This document shows positions 23,066 to 29,186 of a DNA stretch of 29,186 bases, piece after piece. This stretch comes from a virus. The DNA lies in the IMG/VR virus record IMGVR_UViG_3300030450_000111, positions 1 through 29,186 of that record; one strand, 5' to 3'. The translations under genes and the position numbers were made by a program. The notes beneath the pieces are model-generated. The model was not told where the DNA came from and searched no databases. It saw only the letters and a program-made list of their open reading frames with translations. The number at the start of each line of letters is the position of its first letter. Position 1 is the stretch's first letter.

Positions 23066-23639
23066 CTTCATTTAATTTCTTTTTAATTATTGTTCTTACT
23101 TTGTCTATTGTGTTAAAGATACTATTCCTGCTTATCTTAGTCTTTGCCGCTAAGGAGTCTAGGGTGTTCCCCTCATAGTAATATAATTGAAAAATTTTAG
23201 AATCGTACCAATACACATCTTCCAACGCTTTATCTATTTGTTCTAGCTTGTTTAGCTTATGGTTATCTACTTCTTTGTTCGGAATATTTGAAATATCTTT
23301 ATAATTAAAACCATCAGGAATAAAAAACTCATCAGTATCAGTTGCATTAGAACTATAAATAGAGCTGTCAATATGTGTATAATACTTTTCATACTTATAG
23401 TAAAAGCTACTTCTAGGACTTGTTAAAGCTCTCCTTAGTGCTACTGCTCCATATCTTGTAACTCCTTCCAATCCATCTTTGTCGTAAATACTTCTAAGGG
23501 TATCAGGGTTCATTTGTAAAAAATAAAGCATTAATTCCTGTACAGCGTTATTTATTTTATTCTCATCAGTAGTTAATCCAAAAGCCATAGTCCTAAACTT
23601 ATCACTAAGCGTAGCTATTTCTTTATATATTTTATTCAT
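23058..23639 (-). CDS. RNA polymerase sigma-70-like factor
   Basis: A 193-residue protein with the two-part layout of small sigma factors: an N-terminal helical part (ENKINNAVQELMLYFLQMNP, then YGAVALRRALTSPRSSFYYKYEKY) and a C-terminal helix-turn-helix (YYYEGNTLDSLAAKTKISRN, SIFNTIDKVRTIIKKKL) like region 4. Similar proteins occur in Bacteroidota phages. It could redirect host polymerase to phage late promoters; structural genes here lack host-type promoters and share a different upstream motif, which is circumstantial support. Region 2 is not clear enough for full confidence. Confidence 0.62.
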   Translation of the reverse strand: MNKIYKEIATLSDKFRTMAFGLTTDENKINNAVQELMLYFLQMNPDTLRSIYDKDGLEGVTRYGAVALRRALTSPRSSFYYKYEKYYTHIDSSIYSSNATDTDEFFIPDGFNYKDISNIPNKEVDNHKLNKLEQIDKALEDVYWYDSKIFQLYYYEGNTLDSLAAKTKISRNSIFNTIDKVRTIIKKKLNEDV

Positions 23640-23988
23640 TAGTAGGTTCTAAGTTATCTAGCTTTCCTACTACTTCTTGTAACATTTGATCTAACACAAC
23701 TTTATAAGCTCTTATTGAAGCTGAGTTAGTTTTGGTTTCTATTCCTGCAAAAAAACCACTTGTAGCAACTGATAAGTTAATTGGTATAATAGTTATCCAA
23801 TCATAAAAATTATTCTCTCTCAGCCCTTCTCCGTAGCCATTATGGTATTCTGTAATCAAATCTATAACCTCTAAATAATTTTTGTATCTTGCTTGGGTTG
23901 ATACTTCTTGTGAGAATTGTTTACACATTGTAATATAAACCTCAACTATTGATCTGTGTTCTTCACTTGAATAAATCGGTTTGAGCAT
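23632..23988 (-). CDS. Hypothetical protein (118 aa)
   Basis: A helical soluble protein (SIVEVYITMCKQFSQEVSTQ, YLEVIDLITEYHNGYGEGLR, KVVLDQMLQEVVGKLDNL). It overlaps the start of the sigma-like gene by 8 bases, so the two are probably co-translated, and it might be a partner or regulator of that factor. No family recognised. Confidence 0.55.
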   Translation of the reverse strand: MLKPIYSSEEHRSIVEVYITMCKQFSQEVSTQARYKNYLEVIDLITEYHNGYGEGLRENNFYDWITIIPINLSVATSGFFAGIETKTNSASIRAYKVVLDQMLQEVVGKLDNLEPTNE

Positions 23989-24009
23989 AAGCCAAAGATA
24001 ATAAAAAAG

Positions 24010-25936: not shown

Positions 25937-26203
25937 TTAATTTCTGTTAAAGCAAATATACATATCAGGATAATAATATATTTCTTCTAAAGTATGAATA
26001 CTTGTAATCTCTATACTGTCGCAAGAAGTTTCTATCATTAATATTGATGTAATAATTGGATAATCATTCATTATATGAGTAGCAGCAATTATAGTACCAC
26101 AAGTATCTAAACAAGTATCTACATTATTAATAGGATTGTATGTTTCTTTTACACAACTACTTAAAGCTGTCAAAATTGTTAAAAGTATTGTAAAATTTTT
26201 CAT
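25937..26203 (-). CDS. Small phage lipoprotein (88 aa)
   Basis: The N-terminus is a clear type II signal: Lys at 3, a hydrophobic core (FTILLTILTA) and a lipobox LSSC with Cys17. The mature part begins CVKETYN; the Lys-Glu after Cys recalls lipoprotein export signals of Bacteroidota, which would place it on the cell surface, but the match is partial. There are four further Cys residues (VDTCLDTCG, SCDS, YICF) that could form disulphides. A small lipoprotein in the early region is a good candidate for superinfection exclusion, as lipoproteins of other phages do. It overlaps the replication organiser gene by 4 bases. Confidence 0.65.
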   Translation of the reverse strand: MKNFTILLTILTALSSCVKETYNPINNVDTCLDTCGTIIAATHIMNDYPIITSILMIETSCDSIEITSIHTLEEIYYYPDMYICFNRN

Positions 26204-26793
26204 AATAGTTTTTTAGCTTCTTGCCATTCGTTTATTTGTGAGTGTAACTTACCCATTGTTTTAGTTTTATCCCACTTCTTTTGATTTTTTTCCCAACGAA
26301 CTAATCTTAATTTTATTTCAAATGTACTTTGTTTTTGGTATCTCATTTTCTTTTTACCCTCAGTCCAATAGTTTATAAAATCCTCTAACATATCTTTAGG
26401 ATAATCAAAAGTCATAACCTCTAAAATAAATTTTTCTTTAGTTATATTTATATTACTTGTATTATTAATACTTGTATTATTACCTTTAATCTTTTTAAGT
26501 ATAGGGGTATCAATCTTTTTCTTGATACCTATACATCTTTTTATTATCTGTTTTTTATCGTTCCTCTCTACAATTACAGTAATAAACCCTAATTTTTTTA
26601 AATCACTAATCCAACTACTAATAGTGTTTTTACTTACATCATATAATTCTGCAAAATAATTGTTACTTGCATAACAGTAACCTAGTTTACCACTTAGAGC
26701 TGTTATCTCTCCATATAGAAGTTTAGCATTAGGTTTTAAATTAGAATATCTAACCTCAGCAGGAATAATAGCGTAGTAATTTGGCTTGTTCAT
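26200..26793 (-). CDS. Replication organiser/helix-turn-helix replication protein
   Basis: The N-terminal ~90 residues are a winged helix of the phage replisome organiser type (NYYAIIPAEVRYSNLKPNAK, then YASNNYFAELYDVSKNTISS with WISDLKKLGFITV). The C-terminal part (MLEDFINYWTEGKKKMRYQK, LVRWEKNQKKW) resembles the DnaD-like/primosome-loading tail. A linker at residues ~104-115 is coded by two near-perfect 15-base repeats (NNTSI, NNTSN). Such proteins bind origin repeats, sometimes inside their own gene, and load helicase. Confidence 0.68.
   Translation of the reverse strand: MNKPNYYAIIPAEVRYSNLKPNAKLLYGEITALSGKLGYCYASNNYFAELYDVSKNTISSWISDLKKLGFITVIVERNDKKQIIKRCIGIKKKIDTPILKKIKGNNTSINNTSNINITKEKFILEVMTFDYPKDMLEDFINYWTEGKKKMRYQKQSTFEIKLRLVRWEKNQKKWDKTKTMGKLHSQINEWQEAKKLL
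26454..26482. repeat. Two 14-base direct repeats (period 15) inside the replication gene
   Basis: TACTTGTATTATTA occurs at 26454-26467 and again at 26469-26482. Each copy contains the interrupted inverted repeat ATAC-TT-GTAT or part of it. They encode the NNTS linker repeats. Position in the linker of a replication organiser recalls the lambda O origin, but two copies could also be simple codon duplication. Confidence 0.5.
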
Positions 26794-27299
26794 ATAATCT
26801 CTAAGTTGTAGTTACAATCAGTCAGGGCAAACTTACATTTTTCTAGTTGGTTATAAAAATCTTTATAAGATACTTTTATGTCAGCTTGTACTTTACCTGA
26901 AGTAATTCTAATGATAGTTTGATGTTTTATACTATTATTAACCCCATTATCTTTCAGGTGTCTTTTCAAATGAGCTAAGTCTGCAAAGGTTCTTTTAGCA
27001 CCCTGAATATTGCTGTAAGCATTATAAACCTTATTAAATGTTTCACGATATTTAGGAAAGCTCCTATAATTTGATTCGTGCATTTTCTCATAATAATAAA
27101 TCAAACTCCTATCCCTTTTAAGTTGTTTAGCAATTATTGTATAATGTGTTTTATCTACCATTATAGCTATTACAGCAGCTACCGATCTTGGTATCTGATA
27201 CTTCTGATACCTGCTTTTGTAGGAAAGCGAACCTTTATCTAACCCTACTAAACTTGTAGTAAGATCACATAAATTTTTAAAGTTTTCTTCTTGTATCAT
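26790..27299 (-). CDS. DnaA domain IV-like helix-turn-helix protein
   Basis: The middle of the protein (IPRSVAAVIAIMVDKTHYTI, then IAKQLKRDRSLIYYYEKM) has the pattern of the DnaA DNA-binding domain: a helix, then an HTH with RDxS in place of GRDHTT. There is no AAA+ domain, so it would bind DnaA-box-like sites rather than act as full DnaA. I chose the ATG at 27299, one base after the upstream stop; an ATG at 27323 would add 8 residues and overlap the SSB-like gene by 23 bases. Three DnaA-box-like 9-mers in the control region are candidate targets. Confidence 0.55.
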   Translation of the reverse strand: MIQEENFKNLCDLTTSLVGLDKGSLSYKSRYQKYQIPRSVAAVIAIMVDKTHYTIIAKQLKRDRSLIYYYEKMHESNYRSFPKYRETFNKVYNAYSNIQGAKRTFADLAHLKRHLKDNGVNNSIKHQTIIRITSGKVQADIKVSYKDFYNQLEKCKFALTDCNYNLEII

Positions 27300-27300
27300 T

Positions 27301-27636
27301 TTAGAATGGTAAGTCATTGTCATCAGTTGTTACAAATTCTTCTCTATTATCAGTTGGCAATTCATTACCATTTACAAATCTAAACCCTCTTATCTTATTA
27401 AAGTATTTACCCTTCCATTCTTCACTATAAATATTACAACTAATAGTAACCATATCTCCCTCTCTTAACTTATTCATTTGTTTTATTTTTTCTTCTCCAA
27501 AACATTCAATAGCTACTAGGTTGTTAAATTCATTATCTGTTTCTAATAAACAAATTTGTTTTGCCCAAGCTTTACCTGCTTTACTTGTACCTGTTTCTTG
27601 TTCTAATTTTCCTACTAATTTTCCTGTTAAATCCAT
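27301..27636 (-). CDS. Single-stranded DNA-binding-like protein (DUF3127-type)
   Basis: A 111-residue OB-fold-like protein with LTGKLVGKLEQETGTSKAGK and AWAKQICLLET in the first third, LREGDMVTISCNIYSEEWKG with YFNKIRGFRF later, and a C-terminal acidic tail ending DDNDLPF. The DxDLPF tip is the conserved protein-recruiting tip of bacterial SSB. It coats single-stranded DNA during replication and recombination. DUF3127 is the nearest family I recall in this phylum. Confidence 0.78.
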   Translation of the reverse strand: MDLTGKLVGKLEQETGTSKAGKAWAKQICLLETDNEFNNLVAIECFGEEKIKQMNKLREGDMVTISCNIYSEEWKGKYFNKIRGFRFVNGNELPTDNREEFVTTDDNDLPF

Positions 27637-27654: not shown

Positions 27655-28041
27655 TTAATATTTCTTTTTAAAATCTTCTGATTCATCTTCTCCAAATACT
27701 CCAAGTTCATAGAACCCTGTAAGTTTTAATACTGCTCGGCTCATAGCTCTTTTCTCAGCCATTTCCATTACATACCAAGTGTTACAGTTTCCATCTTTAA
27801 ATCCCCCCTTTAGAGCTGATCCAAAGGTTTGTATTGATGTTTCTCCTTTTAAAGCATTTGCTTTTACTACACAAAAATCTCTTTCACAATTTATAACTTC
27901 ATAGTCAATAGTAATATTTTCTATCGCCTGAATTTTATCAATTCCTGATCTTGTGATGATTACATAGTGTTGATGTTTAAAGACATCTTCTTTGTCTAGT
28001 CCGTAATGGTGGTACTTTTCCTTAATCTTTTCAGTTTTCAT
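27655..28041 (-). CDS. Recombination/annealing-associated protein (uncertain)
   Basis: A 128-residue protein whose second half has TWYVMEMAEKRAMSRAVLKL followed by TGFYELGVFGEDE. This MAEKRA...R.VLKL.G segment is shared with several phage recombination accessory or annealing proteins that I recall next to SSB genes. The Rad52/ERF-like character is not established. It overlaps the previous gene by 4 bases and precedes the SSB-like gene, supporting a DNA-metabolism role. Confidence 0.5.
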   Translation of the reverse strand: MKTEKIKEKYHHYGLDKEDVFKHQHYVIITRSGIDKIQAIENITIDYEVINCERDFCVVKANALKGETSIQTFGSALKGGFKDGNCNTWYVMEMAEKRAMSRAVLKLTGFYELGVFGEDESEDFKKKY

Positions 28042-28403
28042 ATCGTTGTTATTAGTGCTTTGTTATTACTCAGTTTATTGTATCTTTCTTTATATTCAGA
28101 TAGTTTCTTTTCTACTATCTTATTTTGCGTTATAGCTTCATTTTCTCCATACCTTCTTTTTCTATGCTCATACCAATAAGAACCTTTTGGCTCAACCTTA
28201 AAATCAAAACACTCATTCAAATTTAGCCCTGTTAATTCTATATAAGTATCTAAAGATTCATCTATCTGTGATCTTGTTCCAAATATTCTTATACTTGGCT
28301 CTACTTTCTCTATATCTTGAAACCAACCATCAGGAGATAGCTTAGAGATTGTTTTATAAATTCCATTATTATAGAAATAGAAATCTTGGCAAATTAACTC
28401 CAT
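28038..28403 (-). CDS. Hypothetical early protein (121 aa)
   Basis: No recognised family. The N-terminal half is beta-rich (ICQDFYFYNNGIYKTISKLS, GWFQDIEKVEPSIRIFG) and the C-terminal half basic and helical (YWYEHRKRRYGENEAITQNK, LSEYKERYNKLSNNKALITT). Overlaps both neighbours (10 bases upstream, 4 downstream), so it is a co-translated second gene of the early operon. Confidence 0.52.
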   Translation of the reverse strand: MELICQDFYFYNNGIYKTISKLSPDGWFQDIEKVEPSIRIFGTRSQIDESLDTYIELTGLNLNECFDFKVEPKGSYWYEHRKRRYGENEAITQNKIVEKKLSEYKERYNKLSNNKALITTI

Positions 28404-28735
28404 TGTGTATTGTCTTTAAAGTTATAGTATTCTTTTTTAATTTCAATAAACAGGTTGATTATTTGTTCAGAATCTAACATTGAAAGCATACTAACTTTGT
28501 GTTCGTTACGGCTTTTCGACTGTTTAATTGCATCTTCACTCCAACCAGTATAATCACATTCTATAAGAGGCTTGGTTGTTACAATCATTGGTAAGTCCCA
28601 ACATTGTTTTACTACTGCAAACAAGTCGCTAGTGCATTTATTTAGCCATACTGGGTTCTCAATTAGAACATTTTCTATTGAGGTAATTGCTTCTGAAGCG
28701 TTTGTTGCTTCCTTCATTTTAAAAGTTGTTTTCAT
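28394..28735 (-). CDS. Hypothetical first early protein (113 aa)
   Basis: First gene after the early promoter. The product is soluble and acidic-neutral, with a helix-rich end (KVSMLSMLDSEQIINLFIEI). Central DLFAVVKQCWDLPMIVTTKP has no family that I recognise. As the earliest gene it could act on host functions, but that is only positional inference. Confidence 0.52.
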   Translation of the reverse strand: MKTTFKMKEATNASEAITSIENVLIENPVWLNKCTSDLFAVVKQCWDLPMIVTTKPLIECDYTGWSEDAIKQSKSRNEHKVSMLSMLDSEQIINLFIEIKKEYYNFKDNTQWS

Positions 28736-28774
28736 CTTAGTTTGTTTTAAATTTATTTCGTTTTAATTATGGCA

Positions 28775-28806
28775 CAAAGATACAGGTTTCTTGCAATTCA
28801 CACAAC
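28775..28806 (-). promoter_or_regulatory. Early promoter (Bacteroidota type)
   Basis: On the minus strand TTG (28803-28805) is followed after 20 bases by TATCTTTG (28782-28775), an exact match to the TTG-N17/23-TAnnTTTG consensus. The leader of about 35 bases is A-rich (AAACGAAATAAATTTAAAAC) and ends at the ATG of the first early gene. Confidence 0.8.
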
Positions 28807-28838
28807 TATTAACAGTTTTATTTACAAACTTATTAACA
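28806..28838. repeat. Three DnaA-box-like iterons at exact 12-bp period
   Basis: CTATTAACA (28806-28814), TTATTTACA (28818-28826) and TTATTAACA (28830-28838) share seven of nine positions (six for the first) with the bacterial DnaA box TTATNCACA-type consensus and start exactly 12 bases apart. They lie directly upstream of the -33 box of the early promoter. They may be operators or part of a replication origin. Confidence 0.6.
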
Positions 28839-28851
28839 ATTAAGGTGTTAA
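28833..28851. repeat. Inverted repeat TTAACA-N7-TGTTAA
   Basis: Perfect 6-base arms (28833-28838 and 28846-28851) separated by ATTAAGG. The left arm is the end of the third iteron, and the right arm reads on the other strand as a further, degenerate copy. It could be a dimer site. Confidence 0.5.
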
Positions 28852-28957
28852 GAAAGGTATTTACTAGAGAAGAAAGGGTATTAAATAGAAAAGAATAAAA
28901 CTATAATAATTAAGAAGAAATAGAATAAAGTAAGCTTTGTAGAATCATTTAGCTTCA

Positions 28958-29186
28958 CTATAAAGGCATTAAAAGGTTAATTGGTAGTGTGCCATTATTA
29001 AGTACAACTGCACAGCCAATAGCTTGTCTTTTAAAGTTCTTAGCGTAAGCAGCAGCATAAGTAGTTGAATCAACTCCGCAACCTGTCTGTAATCCGAATA
29101 CTCTAAATCTCTTGCCAACGAACCACTTGCAATATGCTTCAGTATGAGTATGTCCGCAAACGCTAGACATTAGATTGTTCTTAGCT
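28958..29186 (-). CDS. Metallophosphoesterase C-terminal part, partial at right edge
   Basis: The frame is open to the right edge and ends with TAG at 28958. It begins in the window with AKNNLMSSVCGHTHTEAYCK, so it contains the GHTH metal-binding motif, and continues with GKRFRVFGLQTGCGVDSTTY and a hydrophobic end (LNNGTLPINLLMPL). The internal Met at 29170 is not the start: the same residues lie inside the gene at the left edge. It is very probably the rest of that gene if the genome is circular. The overlap differs in several residues (K/R, R/K, L/M, T/V), so a different strain or a second copy is possible. Confidence 0.82.
   Translation of the reverse strand, partial: AKNNLMSSVCGHTHTEAYCKWFVGKRFRVFGLQTGCGVDSTTYAAAYAKNFKRQAIGCAVVLNNGTLPINLLMPL

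Follow-up and report, generated by a model that had tools for sequence, protein, structure and literature searches.

An array of head-to-tail 12-bp units was found at the early promoter of a phage genome, and a stand-alone protein with a predicted DnaA domain IV fold was encoded in the same operon, several genes down. We judge the chances to be slightly better than even that the array is an operator for this protein, which would repress the early genes by delayed negative feedback. The original prediction had proposed either a phage-borne origin or an autoregulatory switch. The autoregulatory half was the best-supported reading, with a protein that we infer to bind the array, and the phage-origin half proved weaker.

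The window analyzed was the whole virus record of 29,186 bases, and every recognized gene was located on the minus strand. Bases 1-111 were 83% identical to bases 29076-29186, and both ends lay inside one metallophosphoesterase gene. This shared stretch suggested that the genome was probably circularly permuted. The contig is probably complete, with ends derived from slightly different strains. In relatives from IMG/VR (up to approximately 28-30 kb), the order phosphoesterase, array, and early genes was unbroken. The nearest cultured phages were Nonlabens P12024S/L (terminase 63%). This kinship, together with the promoter type, pointed to marine Bacteroidota as the probable hosts of this virus group. 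Neither Rfam families nor tRNAs were found in the window.

Array of 12-bp units at the early promoter

Three DnaA-box-like sites at a strict 12-bp spacing had been predicted. They were confirmed on the plus strand as TATTAACA (28807-28814), TATTTACA (28819-28826), and TATTAACA (28831-28838). The sites as listed were 8-mers and not 9-mers as had been stated, and the full 9-mers were CTATTAACA, TTATTTACA, and TTATTAACA. The boxes were oriented head-to-tail with the coding-strand consensus TGTTAATAACTT, i.e. TTATTNACA, where the DnaA box is TTATNCACA. Unit 1 was TGTTAATAAGTT (28827-28838, minus strand), and its reverse complement held TTATTAACA. Unit 2 was TGTAAATAAAAC (28815-28826, minus strand; TTATTTACA). 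Unit 3 was TGTTAATAGTTG (28803-28814, minus strand; CTATTAACA), and its final three bases formed the -33 TTG of the promoter. A weaker fourth unit that had been missed, TGTGAATTGCAA, was located at 28791-28802 on the minus strand (AATTCACA, 28795-28802). The best-kept array unit among the relatives was TGTTAATA. The inverted copy predicted at 28846 was also recovered as the half-site TGTTAA (28846-28851, plus strand). It faced unit 1, giving TTAACA-N7-TGTTAA on the coding strand, and most TGTTAAT-class relatives had kept it.

The lag-12 score was matched in none of 500 dinucleotide shuffles of the intergenic stretch 28736-28880; when all lags of 8-24 were allowed, 0.8% of the shuffles matched it. 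When the window was scanned with a unit PWM built from the relatives, this was the sole array, with a score of 31.4 and a runner-up of 6.5. No clusters of canonical DnaA boxes were found in the window, in which TTATNCACA occurred once as an isolated copy.

Sigma-A promoters of Bacteroidota are characterized by a TTG at -33 and by its spacing to the -7 element. The consensus of the -7 element is TAnnTTTG (PMC9723704). The original prediction had placed the boxes beside an early promoter, and this was borne out. A -7 element with this consensus, TATCTTTG, was located at 28775-28782 (minus strand), and the -33 TTG was located about 20 bp upstream at 28803-28805 (minus strand), giving TTG-N20-TATCTTTG. 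This was the single match to TTG-N17-21-TAnnTTTG on the coding strand (28805-28775). E. coli-type sigma-70 sites and terminators were not found at this region. The operon driven by this promoter began with a gene of unknown function (28394-28735, minus strand), which 24 of the 42 long relatives also carried.

Conservation was monitored in about 250 loci, which were gathered with four different bait proteins and inspected behind the phosphoesterase; 146 of them were non-redundant. At least 21 of the 24 core positions were kept in 136 of the 146 loci, and an array of three to four units was present in nearly all of them. The array had the phosphoesterase, or a micro-ORF, on one side and the first early gene on the other. 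The few low-scoring loci checked by eye had mostly two to four diverged units or fewer units, for example two units in L177, TGTTCATAA units in L139, and two weak units in L090. The unit sequence varied between sub-families, with the units changing together and the period being kept (TGTTAATAACTT vs AGTTAAAAACTT). Relatives that encode this protein thus kept the 12-bp period almost without exception, although its absence from them had been named as a refutation of the original prediction. As evidence, this conservation is far stronger than the shuffle test of a single sequence. A scan of 2.9 million viral contigs with the DNA pattern only gave matches almost exclusively in this phage group.

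The array was also anchored to the promoter. The -7 box was a perfect TAnnTTTG in 123 of 141 relatives, and a less perfect box was observed in some (TATTATTG). Among these 141 relatives, unit 1 and the -7 box were either 44-49 or 56-58 bp apart, with none at 50-55 bp and two outliers. A fourth unit was present in 58 of the 63 loci whose -7 box was at least 53 bp from unit 1, compared to 2 of the 78 with a shorter distance (Fisher p ~5e-31). An extra unit shifted the start of the array by roughly a helical turn, with the last unit staying at the -33 element. Since the fourth unit tracked the longer distance and the last unit remained at -33, the array belonged to the promoter.

The stand-alone DnaA domain IV protein as the proposed reader of the array

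The proposed reader was a stand-alone DnaA domain IV-like protein of 177 aa (26790-27323, minus strand), identified using Bac_DnaA_C, AlphaFold2, and structure matches. A DnaA-IV fold without an ATPase domain had been predicted for 26790-27299. The structure model agreed with this fold, the ATPase domain was absent, and the ORF was found to extend to 27323. The earlier start at 27299 corresponded to the near-invariant Met9, which may be the true start. A single-strand DNA-binding protein (DUF3127; 27301-27636, minus strand) was encoded next to this gene. The window protein matched PF08299 (Bac_DnaA_C) below threshold, with 18.6 bits against the curated cut-off of 31.5 (E 0.0019). Among 26 aligned relatives, 23 matched Bac_DnaA_C at E <= 0.1, the best at 1.1e-8. 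The AlphaFold2 model built from 101 sequences had a pLDDT of 90.7. Structure prediction, which could have refuted the original prediction by showing another fold, gave DnaA domain IV: the model matched the DNA-bound structures 3PVP (Z 15.1) and 1J1V (Z 14.5), and the next unrelated fold scored 5.2. The rmsd was 1.8-1.9 over 93-96 residues with a Foldseek probability of 1.00.

In E. coli DnaA, the TTA part of the box is recognized by R399, and TnCACA by the recognition helix (PMC5742627). Residues 13-105 of the phage protein aligned structurally to residues 374-467 of E. coli DnaA, so that R38 corresponded to R399. This minor-groove arginine was invariant in 118 of 118 sequences. The start of the recognition helix, D433-H434-T435, was not kept: D71 was present in 88 of 118 sequences, R72 replaced H434 and was invariant in all 118, and S, T, A, or V occupied position 73. 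Domain IV was followed only by a 73-aa alpha/beta domain, and the AAA+ ATPase domain III was absent. Because of this absence the protein was not a DnaA initiator. The small C-terminal domain was predicted with confidence (pLDDT 93.8). Foldseek gave no match for it at E <= 0.001, and the best hits (Z 4.3) were ACT/PII-like regulatory domains, which was too weak to name it as such. No tblastn match to the DnaA-IV protein was found in 50,697 records of cultured phages. The search of host genomes gave a single match with 71% identity (L113), a contig of 29,000 b in a metagenome-assembled genome labelled Euryarchaeota. It was most likely a mis-binned virus.

The units had been described as resembling a DnaA box. 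This was true of the TTAT and ACA halves, with consensus frequencies of 0.75-0.96. It was not true of the C at position 6 of TTATNCACA, since unit position 4 was T, A, G, or C. All fixed positions of TTATTNACA and TTATNCACA agreed except C6. The fit of the array consensus to the DnaA box was better than that of about 99.2% of column-shuffled PWMs (p = 0.007) and of 99.1% of permuted boxes (p = 0.008).

The DnaA-IV protein probably binds the array, as judged from the fold, the resemblance of the units to the DnaA box, and co-occurrence. It was encoded in all 38 contigs that were found by the DNA pattern alone and had more than 4 kb downstream. Starting from the protein baits, none of the 107 loci with 3.3 kb or more downstream lacked it. 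However, several other genes were universal too, so that the reader cannot be identified by co-occurrence alone. Mantel tests and partial regressions of the array divergence against six proteins gave weak values for all, and the DnaA-IV protein was not singled out. The comparison of recognition-helix residues by array class gave no usable covariation, since the contact residues and the array were both nearly invariant.

It is quite unlikely that the array is read by a different protein, whether from the phage (the replication initiator Rep or a further conserved early protein) or from the host (DnaA or some other factor). Rep was no less universal than the DnaA-IV protein. Its Mantel correlation with the array was weak but the highest of all (0.23, compared to 0.21 for DnaA-IV and 0.21 for the second early gene). 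However, two dissimilar types of the N-terminal DNA-binding domain were observed in Rep (81 and 32 loci); HTH_36 was matched in one and not in the other, and TGTTAATAACTT was the commonest first unit with both. Rep is therefore probably not the reader, because its DNA-binding domain swaps while the array stays. The resemblance of the units to host DnaA boxes spoke for host DnaA. However, host DnaA requires C6 of TTATNCACA, which was not conserved in the array, and this makes it an unlikely reader. For the same reason it was set aside as a competitor for the array, which had been part of the original prediction; the phage protein also has an invariant Arg at the position of DnaA His434.

Proposed operator function and alternative roles

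If the array is an operator, its three to four head-to-tail 12-bp units and the inverted half-site would run from upstream into the -33 element, and the reader would be the product of the very operon that is controlled. The DnaA-type minor-groove arginine would read the TTA half and the modified recognition helix the ACA half. Copies of the protein could align side by side along the 12-bp repeats, and their binding would be cooperative. The host polymerase would fire the early genes at once, before any phage protein is made. The DnaA-IV protein would then accumulate, fill the array, and turn the early genes down, with the occupied last unit covering the -33 element and blocking sigma. Delayed negative feedback appeared the most likely outcome because the -7 element was near consensus, the promoter must fire with the host polymerase first, and the last unit covered -33. 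The position of the gene in a replication module (SSB, DnaA-IV, Rep) also fits a replication role, which was a point against the operator.

An activating role is rather unlikely. In this reading, the DnaA-IV protein or host DnaA on the array would raise the activity of the early promoter, in the manner of DnaA at the lambda origin region. Most units were located upstream of -33 with the last one abutting it, where activators that contact sigma are usually found, and the number of units was in a fixed phase with the promoter. Activation by DnaA has been described for lambda-derived plasmids, and DnaA binding in lambda activates at the origin/early promoter region (PMC8203912). By this precedent, the effect of the array could also be activation. 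The less perfect -7 box in some relatives was also consistent with activation. However, the proposed activator would itself be made from the same operon, and the promoter should need no help since most -7 boxes were perfect. It is highly improbable that the repeats are only a passive feature of the promoter, for example an UP-like A/T tract or a DNA bend without a dedicated protein. The units were very A/T-rich and ended at the promoter. However, the G of TGT at unit position 2 was 95% conserved in a window of about one third G+C, so that the array was not merely an A/T tract. In addition, 12 bp differs from the helical repeat, and the joint change of the units between sub-families with the period being kept did not fit a passive feature.

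A replication origin was also considered, in which the DnaA-IV protein on the array would start replication or recruit Rep and a helicase, with promoter transcription helping to open the DNA. We regard this as unlikely. The box-like direct repeats, the DnaA-IV fold, the single array in the window, and the gene order SSB, DnaA-IV, and Rep were in its favor. However, the DnaA-IV protein has no AAA+ domain, and the array was phased to the promoter. A separate initiator gene, Rep (26200-26793, minus strand; HTH_36, 'replication initiation protein'), was present in 42 of 42 long relatives, and it contained iteron-like repeats of its own. In the window, these were two 15-bp repeats (AATAATACAAGTA) in the Rep linker (26451-26481, minus strand), which provided an alternative candidate origin. 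Such repeats were observed in the Rep linker of 46 of 140 relatives, compared to 6 of 139 control stretches, and the unit sequence differed between relatives. The linker carrying them was Asn-rich and of low complexity. Judged from the sequence, the repeats in the Rep gene are a likelier origin than the array and possibly the true one. The cumulative GC skew was uninformative for an origin; it was monotonic because all genes were on one strand.

An A/T-rich stretch had been noted just beyond the boxes. It was present, but it was mostly coding, and this was a further point against an origin at the array. It contained an unannotated ORF for a 25-aa micropeptide with a single TM (MKLNDSTKLTLFYFFLIIIVLFFSI, GTG start; 28881-28958, minus strand). 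The start overlapped the stop of the phosphoesterase as TAGTG in the window and as TAGTG, TAATG, or TGATG in the relatives. The ORF was found in 103 of 146 loci and was nearly always exactly 25 aa long despite a widely varying sequence. The A/T-rich flank was thus not free to serve as an unwinding element, because it was largely this conserved micro-ORF. A role of the micropeptide in lysis is possible because the ORF lies behind the endolysin region. It is doubtful, to a degree similar to the origin itself, that operator and origin recognition are combined. In that case a widespread marine phage lineage would use a DnaA DNA-reading domain without the ATPase as the regulator of a head-to-tail 12-bp array, and the same site would switch from early transcription to the start of replication.

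Relation to known systems and additional elements

E. coli DnaA represses its own promoter (PMC8203912). The phage system resembled this autoregulation in its DnaA-type DNA-binding domain, in the box-like sites at the promoter of its own operon, and in the negative feedback logic, which is only proposed for the phage. In contrast to E. coli, the phage protein consisted of domain IV and a small C-terminal alpha/beta domain with no ATP switch, the sites were strictly 12-bp head-to-tail with TTATTNACA in place of TTATNCACA, and the promoter was of the Bacteroidota type. By analogy, the circuit would work like DnaA autoregulation, but with a protein other than DnaA and with sites that differ from canonical DnaA boxes. 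The low-affinity DnaA-box arrays of oriC consist of weak boxes in one orientation and at close spacing, on which proteins can assemble side by side (PMC5742627). The phage array was similar in orientation, spacing, and weakness of its boxes. However, it was located at the promoter -33 and not beside an unwinding element, and the phage protein lacked the AAA+ domain that builds the oriC filament. Initiators of the lambda O type carry iterons within their own gene. The Rep gene of the window, with its internal 15-bp linker repeats, was similar in this respect, which concerns the alternative origin and not the array.

Stand-alone 'DnaA C-terminal domain' proteins have been annotated in many tailed phages, for example in Nonlabens phage P12024L (I6RTB7) and in uncultured Caudovirales. 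They share the DnaA-IV fold without AAA+, and the DnaA-C protein of P12024L (by its length apparently gp18) was encoded directly behind the same phosphoesterase. However, the named entries had only approximately 12-23% identity over the domain, and in Nonlabens P12024S/L a distant DnaA-C-like protein was present but no such array was found. The open-licence literature searched yielded no work on how these stand-alone DnaA-C proteins function in phages, as regulators or otherwise. The present phage group offers a stand-alone DnaA-IV protein one concrete, single, and strongly conserved candidate target, and a 145-bp fragment together with a single 177-aa protein allows its role to be tested directly. 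Little is known of gene control in phages of marine Bacteroidota, for which this would represent a simple regulatory circuit. It would also be a case in which the specificity for the DnaA box has been altered in nature.

Several additional elements were observed. A second noncoding TATCTTTG box was located at 23993-24000 (minus strand), with no -33 TTG at the normal spacing. It just preceded a universal gene (23632-23988), which in turn preceded a sigma-70 region 4-like gene. This -7-like box is possibly a middle or late promoter. In L024, L029, L069, and many other relatives, a conserved element of approximately ATATACTAGACAGCACTTAAAGTnGCTTATCTAGT (inverted TACTAGA/TCTAGTA) was located behind a GCC...GGC stem, between the phosphoesterase and the array. 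It was mostly deleted in the window and could be a terminator or a packaging/recombination site. In some relatives, reverse-oriented array-like repeats were observed immediately before a start codon (L213 6130, L085 11261, and L020 9301, all minus strand). The gene behind them was a homologue of 27655-28041 of the window, and the regulator of the array may have a second site in these repeats.
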